Assembly: GCA_028289815.1 (NCBI GenBank)
Contig: JAPYNQ010000031.1
Location: 1-52,218 of the forward strand
DNA from: Gammaproteobacteria bacterium
GTDB taxonomy: Bacteria > Pseudomonadota > Gammaproteobacteria > JAJDYQ01
Reading direction: 5' to 3'
DNA length: 52,218 nt
The notes beneath the pieces were generated by a model. The model saw nothing but the letters and a program-made list of their open reading frames with translations, had not been told where the DNA came from and did no database searches. Position numbers and translations under genes: made by a program. The first letter of the stretch is position 1. Every line of letters begins with the position of its first letter. This document shows positions 19,064 to 32,345 of this stretch, one piece after another.

Positions 19064-19260
19064 CTCGACCACCCCCGGCACTCTGCACATCACCATGACA
19101 CGCTGAAAACCTGCGTGAGACAAGAGCAGATAACCTGCCGCCCCCTCAGGCCAGTCGCTTTTTATCGTTCTTCTCATGTGCATTTTTCGTCTGAACGGGT
19201 ATGCTCCATACTCAACCTTTATCAGGGTCATGCAACCGGGATTATGCCACCTGGAATACC

Positions 19261-19287
19261 GGCCCGGTCAGACAAATCTGCCGGGCC
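19261..19287. terminator. GC-rich hairpin between DUF4276 gene and hsdM
   Basis: GGCCCGG and CCGGGCC form a perfect seven-base outer stem, an unpaired T follows, and CAGA/TCTG closes on a CAAA loop. It lies 33 bases before the hsdM start and ends the gap after the DUF4276 gene. No T-tract follows, so it may be a terminator or attenuator separating the ATPase pair from the hsd operon. Confidence 0.4.
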
Positions 19288-19319
19288 ATTTGCGGTCCCC
19301 AAAAGAAAAGGAAACAATC

Positions 19320-21236
19320 GTGAGCAACCATCCCGCTCGAACCGCACAAGGCACATCGACAGGCGCAAACCTCGGATTTGAGGACAAACTCTGGAGAGCG
19401 GCTGACAAACTGATCGGCATGATGGATGCTGCCGAATACAAACATGTAGTACTCGGCCTGATCTTTCTGAAATACATCTCCGATTCATTTCTTGAAAAAT
19501 ACGCGGCATTGCAAACAGAAGAGTTTGCCGACCCCGAAGACCGTGACGAATATCTGGCGGACAATGTATTCTGGGTGCCTGCCGAAGCCCGCTGGGATTT
19601 TCTGCAAGGCAAGGCCAGAGACCCGAAAATCGGTCAGCTGATCGACGATGCCATGACCGCCATTGAGCGAGATAACCCGGCACTTAAAGGCGTCCTGCCG
19701 AAAAACTACGCCCGACCGGCGCTGGATAAATCCCGGCTGGGAGAACTGATCGACCTGATTGCCACCATCGGCCTTGGTGATGCCGACAGCCGCAACAAAG
19801 ATATTCTGGGGCGGGTATATGAATACTTCCTGGGCAAGTTTGCCGAAGCAGAAGGCAAGCGCGGCGGACAATTCTATACGCCTCAATGCGTCGTCAAGCT
19901 GCTGGTTGAAATGCTGGAACCATACAGAGGTCGGGTTTATGACCCCTGCTGCGGTTCAGGCGGCATGTTTGTGCAAGCCATGAAATTCGTCCGGGCACAC
20001 TCCGCCGGGAATGGCAACGGTGCTACCCGCGGCGCAAGGCGCAATATCGCCATTTACGGCCAGGAATCCAATCACACCACCTTCCGCCTGGCCAAAATGA
20101 ACATGGCAATTCGCGGCATTGACGCCCATATCGAATGGGACGACACCTTCCTGAATGACAAACACAAAGGCCTGAAAGCCGATTACATACTCGCCAATCC
20201 GCCGTTCAATGATGAAGACTGGGGATTTTCAAAACTGAAAAAAGATGTCCGCTGGGCATTCGGCCTCCCTCCGGCAGGCGGCCGCCGCAAACAAAAAGAC
20301 GGTTCGACAATTCTGGTAGATGGCGGTAATGCCAACTATGCGTGGATACAACACTTTGTTCATCATCTGAGCCCGGCAGGAACCGCCGGTTTTGTGTTGG
20401 CCAACGGTTCCATGTCAACCAACACCTCTGGCGAAGGAAAAATCCGTCAAAAGCTGATTGAAGCCGACATGGTGGACTGCATGATTGCACTGCCCGGCCA
20501 GCTCTTCTACACCACACCGATTCCCGTCTGCCTCTGGTTTATGACCCGCTCCAAGAAAGCCAACACCAAATACGGCTACCGTGATCGTCAGGGCGAAACA
20601 CTGTTTATGGATGCCCGCAAAATGGGCACACTGATTGACCGGACACATCGTGAACTGTCAGCCGAAGAAATGACCGAAATCGCCCACACCTACCACGCAT
20701 GGCGCGGAAAAAACGGCGACTATCAGGACAAACCCGGATTCTGCAAATCCGCCCCCCTGACAGAGATTCAATCCCATCACTACGTTCTGACACCCGGACG
20801 CTATGTCGGAGCAGAAGCTATTGAAGACGACCTGCCTGCGCCGCATCCCGGAGTCTTTTATGTTTACGTTATCAAATGTCAAGGGGAATCATTTTACATC
20901 GGGCAAACTGATAACATTCCTCGAAGATGGCAGGAACACAAAATGGGTAAAGGCGCAGACTGGACAAAGAAAAATCCGCCGATCTACATCGCCCACTACG
21001 AAGAATTCAGTAATCGTGAAGAAGCTGTCGCACGTGAAAAGGAACTCAAAACAACTAATGGTCGAAGATGGATTAAACAAGCCATAAAAGATGGACGGGC
21101 GCGGCAGGCAGGCGGTATTCCCTTTGCAGAAAAAATGGCCGGGCTCACCGCCACCCTCTACGAGCAGATGCAGGAATCGACCCGCTTGGATGCAGTGATT
21201 CGGAAAAATCTGAAACTGTTAGGGTATGAAGAATAG
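19320..21236 (+). CDS. hsdM: Type I restriction-modification methyltransferase subunit HsdM with in-frame GIY-YIG insertion
   Basis: 638 residues from GTG 19320, preceded by AAGGAAA at good spacing; the upstream extension of the frame has no family similarity. Residues 17-140 form the HsdM N-terminal helical domain ([16 protein letters not shown]). The N6-adenine methyltransferase domain carries motif [11 protein letters not shown] and motif [10 protein letters not shown]. The usual C-terminal tail ([13 protein letters not shown] ... [19 protein letters not shown] ... [10 protein letters not shown]) is interrupted between EDD and GIPF by about 94 residues that form a complete GIY-YIG nuclease domain (residues about 504-597). 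HsdM dimerises and binds HsdS to methylate adenine. The insertion point is a surface linker in the tail, so methylation may survive. It is the first gene of the hsd operon. Confidence 0.92.
20831..21112 (+). mobile_element. GIY-YIG nuclease insertion inside hsdM, bounded by inverted repeats
   Basis: A 282-base (94-codon) in-frame insert. Its left end CCTGCCTGCGCCGC (20831-20844) and its right end GCGCGGCAGGCAGG (21099-21112) are inverted repeats, nine bases perfect and 12 of 14 overall. Deleting exactly this segment restores GAC-GGT-ATT-CCC, i.e. the family's EDD-GIPF junction. The encoded domain has VFYVYVIKC and [17 protein letters not shown], which supply the GIY and YIG motifs and the catalytic Arg. 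[18 protein letters not shown] supplies the catalytic Glu. It belongs to the short YhbQ-like group, which usually exists as free-standing proteins of about 90 residues. All recognisable catalytic residues are kept, so the nuclease could be active. Confidence 0.8.
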
Positions 21237-21281: not shown

Positions 21282-21698
21282 GTGATCGAGTACGATAACT
21301 TTCAAAAGGCACTTAAAAACCTTGAATCGCAAAACAAACACCATAAAACGCTTGATGAATCCCTGCCGGAGTGGATGAAAGAAGCCGTTGCCGAATCCGT
21401 TATTCAACGCTTTGAAACCTGCTGGGACTGTCTCTGGAAGGTAGTCAAACGCTACCTGGAACAAGAGCTCGGGCTTCCCGAAGTCCCCGGCAGCCCCAAA
21501 CCGGTTTTACGAATGGCACCAGAAAACCATCTTTTTTCATCGCCTGCTGAACAATGGATAACCTATGCAGATGCCCGCATCGCCACCTCCCATGACTATA
21601 GCGGACAAAAAGCCCAAAATACCTTGGTTCTGATGAATGACTTTGTCGATGATGCCATCGACCTGTACCAAACCATGAGCGGCGAGCGCTGGCAATAA
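21282..21698 (+). CDS. HEPN-domain protein, HI0074/HepT type (partner of MNT nucleotidyltransferase)
   Basis: 138 residues from GTG 21282, with GGAG upstream. The all-helical sequence (MIEYDNFQKALKNLE ... AVAESVIQRFETCWDCLWKVVKRYLE) matches 'nucleotidyltransferase substrate-binding' HI0074 proteins. A RIATSHDY stretch gives the RX4H motif of HEPN ribonucleases. In MNT-HEPN toxin-antitoxin pairs the HEPN protein is an RNase and the MNT partner inactivates it by adding AMP. The partner domain is present immediately downstream but fused to HsdS: its ATG shares one base with this gene's stop (TAATG). The pair therefore sits inside the hsd operon and is co-translated. Confidence 0.85.
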   Translation: MIEYDNFQKALKNLESQNKHHKTLDESLPEWMKEAVAESVIQRFETCWDCLWKVVKRYLEQELGLPEVPGSPKPVLRMAPENHLFSSPAEQWITYADARIATSHDYSGQKAQNTLVLMNDFVDDAIDLYQTMSGERWQ

Positions 21699-23941
21699 TG
21701 GGCAGGGAACTTGACAATATCGACCTGACAACCCCTCAGCGCAAGGAAATCACCGCCCTGCTGAAACACCACCTGCCCGACACCGAGGTATGGGCCTACG
21801 GTTCACGGGTCCAATTCACCGCCAAACCCTCCTCCGACCTGGATATAGTCGCCTTTACCACAAAAGAACAAAACCGTGCGGTTAATGACCTGAAAGAAGC
21901 CTTTGAAGCAAGCGCATTGCCGTTCCGGGTTGACCTCTTCGTCTGGGATAAGATTCCGAAACAGTTCCGTAAAAATATTGAAAAAGAACGCGTGATGTTG
22001 CAGAAGAAAAAAAAACCAAGAGGTTTGCCGGAGGGGTGGGTGGAAAAAACTCTGGGTGATGTGATTATCATCAATGATGATAATCACTCCAAAAAGGATA
22101 AATGGAAGTTTATCAATTACCTCGACACAGGGAGCCTTATCGAAAACCAGATTTCTGAAATTCAGCATTTGGCTGTCGGTGAAGATACAATACCAAGTCG
22201 AGCTAAACGCAAAATTCAGCCAGGAGACATCATTTATTCAACGGTGAGACCAAACCAGAAACACTATGGCATTCTGAAGAATCCTCCTGAAAATCTTTTA
22301 GTATCAACAGGCTTTTCCACTATTCGAGCAAAAAGTAAAGAGAGTGATACCAATTTCATCTATTGGTTTCTAGCTCAGCCTGAAACTGTAGAAAAACTAC
22401 AAATTATTGGAGAGCATAGCACATCAGCATACCCTTCAATTAAGCCATCAGACATTGAGGGACTGAAACTTAATCTCCCCCCACTCCCCGAACAAAAAGC
22501 CATCGCCCACATCCTCGGCTCATTAGACGACAAGATCGAGTTGAACCGGCGGATGAGTAAAACACTGGAAGCGATAGCCCAAGCCATATTCAAAAGCTGG
22601 TTTATCGACTTCGACCCGGTCAAAGCCAAAATAACCGCCAAGGCCAAGCTCAATAAAAAAAACACCAAACACCCCTCTCCCCACGAGGAAAGAACCGAAA
22701 ATAAAGCCACACACCCCTCTCCCCCCGGGAGAGGGGCCGGGGGTGAGGGAGACAAGGGAAGTAAGGGCAGAAAAACCCCCACCACACTACTAAACAACGC
22801 CCGAAAACTACGCCAATCAGCCACAGACGCCGAAAAACTCATGTGGCAACTACTGCGCGGCAGACAAATCAACAATGCCAAATTCAGAAGACAGCACCCC
22901 ATCGGGCAATACGTCTTGGATTTTTACTGCCATGACCTGAAACTGGCCATAGAACTTGATGGCAGTCAACACAATGAGACAGAGCAGAAGCGATATGACG
23001 ATAAAAGAACAGACTGTCTAGAACAGCAAGGCATCAGAATTTTACGCTTCTGGAACAATCAGGTCTTACAGGAAACCGAGGCGGTTTTAGAGGCTGTGTA
23101 TCAAGCGACGGTAGATTTGTCCCTCACCCCTGGCCCCTCTCCCCAAGGGAGAGGGGATGAAGAGCATCCGAGCGTTACCCTGGCCGCCATGCGTGCGATT
23201 AGTGGCAAAGACGAGGCCACCCTCAAACAACTGCAAGCCGACCAACCGGAAACCTACGAAGAACTCAAGCAAATCGCTGCACTGTTTCCGTCTGAACTTG
23301 AATATACGGAAGAGATGGAGTGGATTCCGAAGGGATGGAAGGTTAGTACGGTTGGTAATGAATTTGATGTAACTATGGGACAATCTCCTCCCGGTTCCAC
23401 ATATAACGCAATAGGTGAGGGGATACCTTTTTTTCAAGGATGTGCAGACTTCGGTTTCAGGTACCCATCGGAAAGAGTTTACTGCACAGCACCTAAAAGG
23501 TTTGCTGAGAAAAATGATACTTTAGTCAGTGTTAGAGCCCCCGTGGGTAATGTCAATATGGCGTTTGATGAATGCTGTATCGGGCGAGGTGTCGGAGCTA
23601 TACGACACAAAAGCTCCAGCCATTCTTATACCTATTATTCCATGCTTCATTTAAGGGAGCGTTTTAATACCTTTGAAGCAGAAGGGACAGTTTTTGGGAG
23701 TATACATCAGAAAGACTTTAAGGCGCTAAAGTGGCTTAGTTCAGATAGAGTTTTAATCGAAAAATATGAAAGACTTGCAGGACAATTTGATAAAAAAATT
23801 GAAGCCTGTTATAAGAATATTCTGAAACTAACTATTTCCCGAGACACTCTTCTCCCCGAACTCCTGTCAGGCGAGATACAGATATCTGAAACGAAAAAAC
23901 TGGTAAAGAATACAAATAGAAATGGAGACCAAAATGACTGA
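21698..23941 (+). CDS. hsdS: MNT nucleotidyltransferase-HsdS fusion with in-frame DUF559 insertion
   Basis: 747 residues. Residues 1-103 are a minimal nucleotidyltransferase (antitoxin type, HI0073/MntA) with WAYGSRVQFTAKPSSDLDIV, i.e. GSx10DxD, and a downstream VDLFVWD carboxylate. A run of nine A bases (22007-22015) encodes the linker. Residues about 110-250 are the first target-recognition domain (LPEGWVEKTLGDV) and 258-312 the central conserved helices (PPLPEQKAIAHILGSLDDKI, FKSWFIDFDPVKAK). Residues about 340-486 are the DUF559 insertion; then MRAISGKDEATLKQLQ resumes the HsdS central region. The second recognition domain (IPKGWKVSTVGNEF) and the closing helices (LLPELLSGEIQ) follow. HsdS sets the DNA sequence of the type I enzyme. 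Such a triple chimera is unusual; the fusion might be resolved by slippage at the A9 run. Confidence 0.85.
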   Translation: MGRELDNIDLTTPQRKEITALLKHHLPDTEVWAYGSRVQFTAKPSSDLDIVAFTTKEQNRAVNDLKEAFEASALPFRVDLFVWDKIPKQFRKNIEKERVMLQKKKKPRGLPEGWVEKTLGDVIIINDDNHSKKDKWKFINYLDTGSLIENQISEIQHLAVGEDTIPSRAKRKIQPGDIIYSTVRPNQKHYGILKNPPENLLVSTGFSTIRAKSKESDTNFIYWFLAQPETVEKLQIIGEHSTSAYPSIKPSDIEGLKLNLPPLPEQKAIAHILGSLDDKIELNRRMSKTLEAIAQAIFKSWFIDFDPVKAKITAKAKLNKKNTKHPSPHEERTENKATHPSPPGRGAGGEGDKGSKGRKTPTTLLNNARKLRQSATDAEKLMWQLLRGRQINNAKFRRQHPIGQYVLDFYCHDLKLAIELDGSQHNETEQKRYDDKRTDCLEQQGIRILRFWNNQVLQETEAVLEAVYQATVDLSLTPGPSPQGRGDEEHPSVTLAAMRAISGKDEATLKQLQADQPETYEELKQIAALFPSELEYTEEMEWIPKGWKVSTVGNEFDVTMGQSPPGSTYNAIGEGIPFFQGCADFGFRYPSERVYCTAPKRFAEKNDTLVSVRAPVGNVNMAFDECCIGRGVGAIRHKSSSHSYTYYSMLHLRERFNTFEAEGTVFGSIHQKDFKALKWLSSDRVLIEKYERLAGQFDKKIEACYKNILKLTISRDTLLPELLSGEIQISETKKLVKNTNRNGDQND
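22007..22015 (+). repeat. A9 homopolymer at the MNT-HsdS junction
   Basis: Nine consecutive A bases encode lysines between the end of the MNT domain and the first HsdS recognition domain. Runs of this length allow transcriptional slippage, which here would separate or restore the fusion, and are also prone to sequencing error. Confidence 0.6.
22714..23156 (+). mobile_element. DUF559 (Vsr-like) nuclease insertion inside hsdS, bounded by palindromic inverted repeats
   Basis: The left end (22714-22750) and the right end (23120-23156) are 37-base inverted repeats, 33 of 37 identical; each is itself a palindrome (CCCCTCTCCC, 3-base loop, GGGAGAGGGG). They encode the PSPPGRGAGGEG and LTPGPSPQGRG peptides often seen beside DUF559 genes. 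Between them residues 365-472 of the host protein form a DUF559/Vsr-like endonuclease domain: ARKLRQSATDAEKLMWQLLR, FRRQHPIGQYVLDFYC, AIELDGSQHNE (catalytic Asp and ExDG) and IRILRFWNNQV. A partial extra repeat copy lies at about 22671-22692. The unit is 443 bases, not a multiple of three, so some flanking sequence must have adjusted to keep the host frame. Confidence 0.75.
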
Positions 23942-29014: not shown

Positions 29015-29158
29015 ATGATGAAGTACCGGCTAATCAGCTTTTGCAGTCCGGAACCTCAACCGGTACCAATTACAACAATTATTCAAGCATCCGATGAAAC
29101 CGTCCGCATCTTTTTCACTGTTAAGGCATCCCAAACCGACGGCATAAATGAAAAATAA
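29015..29158 (+). CDS. Small ORF between AlbA_2 gene and hsdR
   Basis: 47 residues (MMKYRLISFCSPEPQP ... ASQTDGINEK), no family recognised. Its ATG overlaps in ATGA fashion the ancestral stop codon (29016-29018) of the AlbA_2 frame described above, and its own stop overlaps the hsdR start by 11 bases. This position between two coupled genes is the only support; no clear ribosome-binding site is seen. Confidence 0.4.
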   Translation: MMKYRLISFCSPEPQPVPITTIIQASDETVRIFFTVKASQTDGINEK

Positions 29159-32100
29159 CTCATCACCTGCCAAAATGTCAGAGTACAGTTTGGAGCAAGC
29201 CTGCCTGCAATGGTTGTCCGAACTCGGCTGGTATTCAATCCACGGGCCGGACATCGCCCCGGATACCCCTGATGCAGAACGCATAAGCTACTCTGGGGTG
29301 ATTCTTAAAGAACGGTTGAGGACTGCACTTTCGCGGATCAATCCCGGTATTCCTGCCGTCGGCATTGATGAGGCAGTAAAAAAATTACTGGTGGCTGACT
29401 CCCCGGATCTGCTGGTCAATAATCGCACCTTTCACAACATGTTGACCGACGGTATTGATGTTGAAGTATCATCAGAAAGCGGGCACAACGGTACCCGATA
29501 TCGGAAGGTGTGGCTGGTTGATCTGGAAAACATCGACAATAATAATTTTATCGCTGTAAACCAGTTTACCTGTATTGAAGAAGGGCATGATCGTCGGGCA
29601 GATGTTGTTTTGTTTTTGAACGGTCTGCCTGTCGTCATCTTTGAATTAAAGAATCCGGGCAATGAAAATGCGACTATAAGACAGGCCTTCAATCAGCTTC
29701 AAACCTATAAAAAAGACATTCCGATATTATTTACTACCAATGAACTGCTGGTGATCTCCGATGGCATACTTGCCAGGGCCGGAACCCTGACCAGCGAGTG
29801 GGACCGTTTTATGCCCTGGCGAACCGTCTCCGGTGAGGAGGTAGCTGCAAAAGGAACCCCTGAGTTGGCAACTCTGATCAGGGGGCTTTTCGAGCGGCGA
29901 CGCTTTCTCGACTATATCCTGAATTTTATTGTCTTTGAGGATGACGGTTTCAGGTCAGCCAAAAAGGCTGCCGCCTATCACCAATACTGGGCGGTGAATA
30001 AGGCATTGACCTGTACCCTGTCGGCCTGTGGCATAGACACCGACCCGGAAAAATTGATTGGCCGTTTCCCGCCTGTACAACCTCCCTTGGGAGTCAAAGA
30101 AGATGCGCCTGTCTATGGAAAAGGGTCAGGACATTTTGACGGCAGGAGAATCGGTGTCATCTGGCATACACAGGGAAGCGGCAAAAGTCTTTCCATGACA
30201 TTTTATGCCGGGAAGGTTGTCCGTCATCCCGATATGAACAATCCGACCCTGGTTATTGTGACGGATCGAAATGATCTGGATGATCAGCTCTTCGGTACAT
30301 TTGCTGGCTGCCGGGACCTGCTTCGTCAATCCCCGGCTCAGGCCAGAGCTCGGTCCCATCTCAAGGGACTGTTGAAAGTCCCCTCCGGCGGAATTGTTTT
30401 CACGACCATTCAAAAATTTATGCCGGACGAGCGCGGCGATGCTCACCCCCTGTTGTCTGGCCGTAAGAATATTGTAGTGATCGCAGATGAAGCCCATCGC
30501 AGCCAGTATGATTTTATTGATGGCTTTGCACGGCATCTGCACGATGCCTTACCGAATGCCTCATTTATCGGTTTTACCGGGACCCCGATTGAACGTGACG
30601 ACAAAAGCACCCCGGCGGTTTTCGGTAACTACATTGATAAATATGACATTCTGCGTGCGGTTGAGGACGGGGCCACAGTGCCAATCTACTATGAAAGTCG
30701 GCTGGCCCGAATTGAATTGAGTCAAGCTCAACTGGCCGCAATTGACCCGGAGTTTGAGGCGATCACAGAGGCAGAGGAAGAAACGGACAAACAACGGCTC
30801 AGAACAAAATGGGCGGCATTTGAAGCCCTGATCGGTACCGATGAGCGCATCAAGCGGGTTGTCGAGGACCTGGTTTCTCATCTTGAGAGCAGACTCGATA
30901 CGATGGACGGCAAAGCCCTGATCGTCTGCATGAGCCGCCGTATCTGCGTCGATATCTATAATGCCCTCAAGGCAATCCGACCGGACTGGCACAGCGAGGA
31001 CGAAGCAAAGGGCTTTATGAAGATCGTGATGTCCGGGTCTGCTTCGGATCATATTGACTGGCGGCCCCACATCCGTAACAAGGTCGGACGCGAAGCTCTG
31101 GCCAGGCGGTTCAAAAATCCCGGCAGTAACCTCAAATTGGTCATCGTCCGTGATATGTGGTTGACCGGCTTTGACTGCCCCAGCCTGCATACCATGTATA
31201 TCGACAAACCCATGAGCGGGCACAATCTGATGCAGGCCATTGCCCGGGTCAACCGGGTATTCCGGGATAAGCCCGGCGGGCTTGTGGTTGACTATATCGG
31301 TCTGGCAGATTCATTGAAAAGAGCACTTGCCAATTACACCGCCGGCGGCGGTCAAGGCGCTGCTACGGTCGATCAGGAACAGGCCGTAACAGTGCTCATG
31401 GAAAAATACGAGATTGTGCGCGATATACTGCATGGCTTTGATTACACCGCTGTGCTTAAAGACATTCCGGCCGGAAGAATATCCGGTATAACACAGGCGA
31501 TGGAGTTCATTCTCGGCCTGGAAGATGGCAAAAAACGCTATCTTCCCGCCGTCTCTGCGCTTACCAAGGCGTTTGCGCTTGCGGTTCCACATGAACAAGC
31601 CATTCGGGTTCGTGACGAAGTCGGCTTCTTTCAGGAGGTCAGGGCTGCGCTGGTCAAGGCTACCGGTGATGCGCAGGGACGGACACCGGATGAAATGGAT
31701 TCGGCCATAAAACAACTGGTTTCACAGGCCGTATCATCAACCGGAGTGATTGATATCTTTGCGGCGGCCGGCATGGATAAGCCGGATATCTCCATTCTGT
31801 CGGATGATTTTCTGGAGGAAGTCAAAGCCCTGCCACAAAAAAATCTGGCTCTTGAACTCCTGAAAAAACTGATCAACGACGAGATCAGAACATGTTTCAG
31901 GAAAAACGTCATTCAGGCCCGATCATTTGCAGCAATGCTGGAGCAGGCGGTGAAAAAATATCAGAACCGTGCGATTGCGGCGGCTGAGGTCATACAGGAG
32001 CTGATTGAACTTGCGCGAGAACTCCGACAATCTGAACAGCGTGGCGACAGCTTGGGCCTGACAGAAGATGAAATCGCTTTTTACGATGCGCTGGCAGACA

Positions 32101-32345
32101 ACCACAGCGCACGGGACATCATGGGTGACAAAAAACTTTGCACCGTAGCACAGCTGTTGGTTGAACGGGTAAAACGCAGCGTCTCTATTGACTGGACTCT
32201 GCGAGAAAATGCCCGCGCTCAAATCCGGGTAATGGTTAAAAAAATACTCCGCCAGTATGGCTATCCACCTGACCTGCAAAAAGCCGCGACAGAACTGGTG
32301 ATTGAGCAGGCCGAGATGCTCTGCAGGGAATGGAGCGTGGGGTAA
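29148..32345 (+). CDS. hsdR: Type I restriction enzyme motor/nuclease subunit HsdR
   Basis: 1065 residues, normal for the family. The N-terminal PD-(D/E)XK nuclease domain shows RRADVVLFLNGLPVVIFELKNP (residues about 147-168) with the QLQTYK motif following. The helicase/translocase core has Walker A HTQGSGKSLS (about 340), DEAHRSQY (about 447) and GFTGTPI (about 473); the second RecA-like domain holds LTGFDCPSLHTMYIDKP and ARVNRVFRDKPGG. The C-terminal helical region binds HsdM/HsdS. Together with hsdM and hsdS it completes a type I restriction-modification enzyme. It is separated from them by the trlF, two AlbA_2 genes and a small ORF, an order typical of accessory-loaded type I loci. Confidence 0.95.
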   Translation: MKNNSSPAKMSEYSLEQACLQWLSELGWYSIHGPDIAPDTPDAERISYSGVILKERLRTALSRINPGIPAVGIDEAVKKLLVADSPDLLVNNRTFHNMLTDGIDVEVSSESGHNGTRYRKVWLVDLENIDNNNFIAVNQFTCIEEGHDRRADVVLFLNGLPVVIFELKNPGNENATIRQAFNQLQTYKKDIPILFTTNELLVISDGILARAGTLTSEWDRFMPWRTVSGEEVAAKGTPELATLIRGLFERRRFLDYILNFIVFEDDGFRSAKKAAAYHQYWAVNKALTCTLSACGIDTDPEKLIGRFPPVQPPLGVKEDAPVYGKGSGHFDGRRIGVIWHTQGSGKSLSMTFYAGKVVRHPDMNNPTLVIVTDRNDLDDQLFGTFAGCRDLLRQSPAQARARSHLKGLLKVPSGGIVFTTIQKFMPDERGDAHPLLSGRKNIVVIADEAHRSQYDFIDGFARHLHDALPNASFIGFTGTPIERDDKSTPAVFGNYIDKYDILRAVEDGATVPIYYESRLARIELSQAQLAAIDPEFEAITEAEEETDKQRLRTKWAAFEALIGTDERIKRVVEDLVSHLESRLDTMDGKALIVCMSRRICVDIYNALKAIRPDWHSEDEAKGFMKIVMSGSASDHIDWRPHIRNKVGREALARRFKNPGSNLKLVIVRDMWLTGFDCPSLHTMYIDKPMSGHNLMQAIARVNRVFRDKPGGLVVDYIGLADSLKRALANYTAGGGQGAATVDQEQAVTVLMEKYEIVRDILHGFDYTAVLKDIPAGRISGITQAMEFILGLEDGKKRYLPAVSALTKAFALAVPHEQAIRVRDEVGFFQEVRAALVKATGDAQGRTPDEMDSAIKQLVSQAVSSTGVIDIFAAAGMDKPDISILSDDFLEEVKALPQKNLALELLKKLINDEIRTCFRKNVIQARSFAAMLEQAVKKYQNRAIAAAEVIQELIELARELRQSEQRGDSLGLTEDEIAFYDALADNHSARDIMGDKKLCTVAQLLVERVKRSVSIDWTLRENARAQIRVMVKKILRQYGYPPDLQKAATELVIEQAEMLCREWSVG

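Follow-up and report, generated by a model that had tools for sequence, protein, structure and literature searches.

A palindrome-ended DUF559 nuclease cassette in frame within a type I restriction specificity subunit

The restriction operon and its interrupted specificity gene

The window, by which we mean the whole stretch of 52,218 nucleotides analysed here, carries a type I restriction–modification (RM) operon with HsdM, a gene resembling nucleotidyltransferase (NTase) substrate-binding proteins, HsdS and HsdR (Table 1). The criteria for a type I HsdS are met, i.e. specificity domains linked by conserved helices and an hsdM/hsdS/hsdR operon, and the conserved HsdS positions are retained in the fusion, whose N-terminus (aa 1–105) is a nucleotidyltransferase according to profile matches. 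The PF08780 gene and the NTase fused to HsdS follow one another at 21282–22012. The best match of this NTase is HI0073, of the HI0073/HI0074 pair, and the NTase–HsdS fusion is also present in Nitrospira, Binatia and Dehalococcoidia loci (L010–L017).

Table 1. Positions of the operon genes, the cassette and its parts in the window
Feature	Position	Strand	Basis or remarks
HsdM partner carrying GIY-YIG insert	19176..21236	+	profile match
GIY-YIG insert in HsdM	about 20832-21113	+	imperfect 22-nt inverted repeat 20823-20844 / 21099-21120, 77%
NTase substrate-binding-like (PF08780) gene, between hsdM and hsdS	21282..21698	+	profile match
hsdS fusion gene: nucleotidyltransferase + HsdS (TRD1) + DUF559 cassette + HsdS (TRD2)	21698..23941	+	747 aa ORF
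HsdS first specificity domain (Methylase_S), aa 111-291	22028..22570	+	profile match, E=2.6e-23
Degenerate third repeat copy, outside left arm	22672..22694	+	70% over 23 nt
Left palindromic arm	22714..22750	+	core palindrome 22714-22736, inward tail 22737-22750; encodes PSPPGRGAGGEG; disordered linker in model
DUF559 (PF04480) Vsr-like PD-(D/E)XK nuclease domain, aa 365-470	22790..23107	+	profile match, E=7e-39
Right palindromic arm	23120..23156	+	inward tail 23120-23133, core palindrome 23134-23156; encodes LTPGPSPQGRG; disordered linker in model
HsdS remainder: rest of spacer (MRAISGKDE...) + second specificity domain	23157..23938	+	comparison with uninterrupted relatives; structure
HsdR subunit	29148..32345	+	profile match

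The initial annotation had placed a DUF559 domain in the HsdS spacer between two 37-base inverted repeats, each palindromic by itself, and both parts of this description were confirmed: the arms are complementary at 33/37 positions and lie 369 nt apart, and each contains a perfect CCCCTCTCCC-nnn-GGGAGAGGGG palindrome. Each arm consists of this palindrome, with its 10-bp stem, and a 14-nt tail, and both tails face the nuclease. When the palindrome pattern was searched with up to 3 mismatches, the two arms were the only sites in the window (0.00 expected in shuffled sequence), and inspection of the arm sequences found a GTAG or CGTC tag in neither. As free DNA, the left arm is predicted by folding to prefer pairing of its tail over a simple hairpin. 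HsdS resumes past the right arm as had been claimed, with VTLAAMRAISGKD matching VERAAMCAISGKK of L087, an uninterrupted relative that matches on each side of the cassette. A check for the repeat–DUF559 unit elsewhere in the genome succeeded for the repeat only: the palindrome recurs in C1 (three tandem copies), C28 and C68, but as solo copies without a full-length DUF559, which is single copy in this genome.

The DUF559 domain keeps the catalytic positions E17, D46, E57, D59, H63 and D72 (domain numbering), and in its AlphaFold model the fold matches PDB 3hrl with a TM score of 0.85. Across the in-frame DUF559 copies, the positions E, D, E, D, H and D are conserved at 97–100%. The domain lacks a start codon of its own in the stretch separating it from the left arm. 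Of the in-frame cassettes, only 2/35 have an ATG in the 25 codons preceding the domain, compared with 54/66 of the free-standing ones, with the labels in this count resting partly on ORF length. The AlphaFold model of the 747-aa fusion (mean pLDDT 85.7) preserves the fold of both HsdS halves and shows DUF559 as a distinct domain, and the low-confidence stretches 332–360 and 478–492 span the arm-encoded peptides. The model shows DUF559 tethered to HsdS by two predicted disordered linkers, both encoded by the repeats.

The other nuclease insertion reported for the same restriction enzyme, a GIY-YIG domain in HsdM, proved real and belongs to a different family. Its insertion point is clean, between VGAEAIEDD and GIPFAEKM, and ~50 HsdM orthologues in the fetched loci are uninterrupted. 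In L068 and L072, the C-terminal domain of HsdR is interrupted by a GIY-YIG that is 47% identical to this one and shares its peptide ends (DLPAP...RQAG), suggesting from sequence comparison that the GIY-YIG insert is probably another in-frame mobile nuclease.

Occupied and empty sites across genes and phyla

That the cassette is an insertion into HsdS, as first proposed, is borne out by uninterrupted orthologues and by close occupied/empty pairs. Of the two refuting conditions set for it, a lack of further genomic repeat–DUF559 units and a lack of uninterrupted HsdS orthologues, neither applies in full: such orthologues exist, and the repeat, though not the whole unit, has further copies in the genome. 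In the pair L014/L078, hsdS flanks that are 83–84% identical at the DNA level are separated by 520 bp and 31 bp, respectively; in L020/L018, flanks of 89–95% identity are separated by ~485 bp and 25 bp. Both pairs satisfy the homing-element criterion of an empty orthologous site near an occupied one. The 31 bp of L078 retain ATCACTCCTCTCTTGA, a sequence that could be either a scar or a target: compared by eye with half of the cognate palindrome, it agrees at 14/16 positions. Uninterrupted HsdS spacers in three further loci (L024, L026 and L084) contain repeat peptides without DUF559, and that of L088 contains what looks like a truncated DUF559 leader. Empty orthologous sites and scars are in this way observed directly. 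An assembly chimera was ruled out because the same layout is seen repeatedly, in chromosome-level records as well as in different phyla.

HsdS with an in-frame DUF559 was found in Nitrospirota, Binatota, Planctomycetota, Actinomycetota, Bacillota, Acidobacteriota and Gammaproteobacteria, with differing repeat flavours. The domain follows in frame directly after FKSWFIDFDPVxAK. The place of the cassette in the spacer hardly varies among the occupied HsdS. Other RM or methylase hosts are HsdM, HsdR, N6/N4 methylases (Mod) and a DUF1156 methylase. Outside this group, the cassette lies in frame within MetH, a class I aminotransferase, an L,D-transpeptidase (YkuD), an AIRS-domain protein and CbiG, and in the aminotransferase and transpeptidase the match to the catalytic domain is split in two pieces.

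In the DUF559 tree, which rests on 100 columns and has many weak forks, the HsdS state arises about 5–6 times and needs 6 changes, and the host state needs 18. The window cassette groups with MetH inserts, its nearest neighbours being inserts in an unidentified host (L108), HsdM and MetH. The HsdS host tree, built without the insert, requires 12 occupancy changes for 13 occupied genes. Both trees are limited by few columns and recombining specificity domains; their results agree. A single shared origin of the HsdS fusions was rejected by the two trees, and the HsdS cassettes belong to about five to six DUF559 lineages.

The association of PSPxGRG/LTPGPSP repeat peptides with free-standing DUF559 genes, which had also been claimed, is widespread. 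Inverted palindromic flanks (IR score of at least 30, full-length DUF559 genes) surround 58/83 DUF559 loci vs 7/1660 control windows from the same loci, and a second sample gave 23/36 vs 3/720. Across 274 genomes, the exact palindrome is associated with DUF559 (34/60 vs 28/214, p=3e-11, uncorrected for shared ancestry and GC content), and the reversed-pattern control gave zero in all 274. Three genomes (G045, G047 and G093) are rich in palindromes and lack DUF559; persistence or spread of the repeats therefore does not require it. In six loci (L187–L191 and L205), palindromes without DUF559 are often paired 66–78 bp apart with tails mostly inward, resembling REPINs. Several genomes from the same phylum (G304, G444, G347 and G495) have 7–10 DUF559 matches each. 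DUF559 is rare in phages and plasmids (44 plasmid and 11 phage records, all <60% identity), and no phage-borne vector was found among these.

Comparison with known nucleases and repeats

Like homing endonucleases and inteins, the cassette is an in-frame nuclease within a conserved or essential gene, with uninterrupted orthologues and a patchy distribution. Unlike them, it stays in the mature protein, is bounded by palindromic repeats and has many unrelated hosts. The intein criterion is not met, since no Pfam match to a Hint splicing domain was obtained in the window fusion or the other fusions scanned; nor was a Pfam match to an intron seen for the cassette. At its conserved E, D, H and D positions, the domain resembles the signature of the EDxHD (Vsr-like) family, and a DUF559 gene has been assigned to EDxHD homing nucleases, citing Taylor et al. 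2011, in PMC9403480.

In-frame palindromic repeats within genes of likely functional proteins are described for Rickettsia palindromic elements and intragenic REPs (PMC3733652). The cassette fits this description, as its arms encode linkers and the conserved HsdS positions are kept; however, the Rickettsia elements are, in the portion of that source at hand, short repeats only, whereas in the cassette two repeats enclose a nuclease gene. REP/RAYT/REPIN palindromes are often paired with inward tails, dispersed, and also found flanking a nuclease gene (PMC3733652, PMC2817692 and PMC3116915, as far as their available text goes), and the palindromes of the cassette share all three properties. In contrast to REP/RAYT, the gene between the arms encodes a PD-(D/E)XK Vsr-like enzyme and not a HUH tyrosine transposase, the GTAG/CGTC tag is missing, and there are in-frame lineages.

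The E. coli YcjD, Caulobacter VsrA and gonococcal NGO0050 (3hrl) proteins are free-standing DUF559 proteins with the same fold as the cassette domain. They differ from it in having their own start codon and in having been studied or predicted as repair or PD-(D/E)XK enzymes: YcjD/DUF559 was predicted to be a PD-(D/E)XK protein with Vsr affinity (PMC1189080), and VsrA is a DUF559 protein with a predicted role in mismatch repair (PMC12907096). Named-word searches of these two papers turned up nothing on mobile cassettes or flanking repeats. C-rich palindromic repeats follow E. coli ycjD (L180:2800–3080), and a 61-bp stretch of them has matches in 5118/5426 E. coli genomes (median of 4 places in each), more genomes than contain the ycjD region. 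We presume that these may be the known box C repeats. The presence or absence of ycjD was considered as a clean empty site and rejected: in three strains, an efflux operon beside sapF lies where ycjD is otherwise found (PMC12817139), indicating a larger replacement and not cassette excision.

The separate parts, i.e. Vsr-like homing nucleases, in-frame palindromic elements and REP/RAYT pairs, are known, and we found no description of their combination. Searches of the open library yielded no literature linking DUF559 to palindromes or to insertion in frame, an absence that is not proof.

Mode of spread and its alternatives

The presence of similar in-frame cassettes in many unrelated enzymes suggests a mobile element that lives as a protein domain and is not spliced out. 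Mobility and in-frame life of the cassette are well supported; that DUF559 itself drives the movement is inferred. In the absence of cleavage data, we moderately favour the explanation that the cassette is a selfish, unspliced, intein-like nuclease element that spreads via its palindromic ends. A mobile cassette of ~440 bp, made of a palindromic end, the DUF559 endonuclease and the palindromic end inverted, would have entered the flexible HsdS spacer in frame, to be translated as an extra domain without splicing and with its expression supplied by the host protein. The nuclease is inferred to cut at the palindrome or close by, or at an empty target, and the cassette would then be copied into the break during repair, in the style of a homing endonuclease. 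The host protein would usually survive because 5/6 frames through the left arm in the window are open and the arms are unstructured.

Multiplication of a DUF559 unit was observed directly in one other genome, G032, where three units of ~0.53 kb lie at unrelated loci; two match each other at 98.3% identity over 534 bp, and the third shows 91% identity with one of this pair. The units end in inverted repeats, CAAAGGTATC..., which are absent from the rest of this genome. By eye, two copies end in apparent 9-bp target duplications, AATCTGCAC and GTTTGTAAC, of which an automatic scan flagged one. Among 63 scanned elements, only this family stood out for target-site duplications, with none in the window, whose cassette does have terminal inverted repeats. 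A single transposition mechanism is therefore not established, and the chemistry of movement may differ between families. A second repeat with motif GGTGCAGGTTACAAACC adjoins the G032 elements (L163:1240–1290 and L164:1380–1400).

Together with the long terminal inverted repeats, the apparent 9-bp duplications are typical of DDE transposition and leave room for another view, in which DUF559 is a passenger in a MITE-like unit whose ends are recognised, and whose movement is driven in trans, by an unrelated transposase; palindrome pairs lacking DUF559 would also fit. We regard this as unlikely. The outer terminal repeat of the G032 units (26 nt, up to 3 mismatches) was found at DUF559 units only, the active site is almost fully conserved in in-frame copies, and the ends vary strongly between genomes yet always surround DUF559. 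No IS with the same ends as the G032 units was found, and neither element contains a DDE or HUH transposase, the window cassette and the G032 unit encoding DUF559 only.

DUF559 could instead have been co-opted by the restriction system as an HsdS-tethered effector that nicks or cuts at HsdS-bound sites. The retained catalytic residues are compatible with such a role, RM or DNA-methylase genes host 10/14 in-frame cassettes in the class-level sample, and one DUF559 clade of 11 is limited to HsdR, HsdM or HsdS hosts. This proposal is rather improbable, as the same cassettes lie in MetH, the aminotransferase, the L,D-transpeptidase and CbiG, close orthologues do without the cassette, and occupancy is scattered and recurrent. 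RM genes move horizontally, and the nearly identical spacer position in every occupied HsdS might point to one ordinary domain fusion spread by hsdS transfer, but this is very hard to reconcile with cassettes from several DUF559 lineages with different repeat flavours, the 12 occupancy changes on the host tree and cassettes in different host genes.

Repeated entry into unrelated genes and the existence of solo repeats are, like the multiplication in G032, direct observations that the selfish-element explanation takes up. A wider generalisation can only be offered tentatively, and the evidence does not yet tip towards it: DUF559 enzymes may be the mobilisers of widespread, unrecognised palindrome-ended selfish elements, with C-rich palindromic repeats as their footprints, and some lineages may have become permanently in-frame and unspliced, without start or stop codons, hopping between unrelated proteins and phyla. 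If true, the DUF559 family, including YcjD, VsrA and others, would gain a second role as the driver of a selfish element, and an origin would be offered for common C-rich palindromic repeats. It would also mean that mobile nucleases need no splicing device to last within other proteins, and that restriction–modification genes and several core enzymes carry removable nuclease domains.
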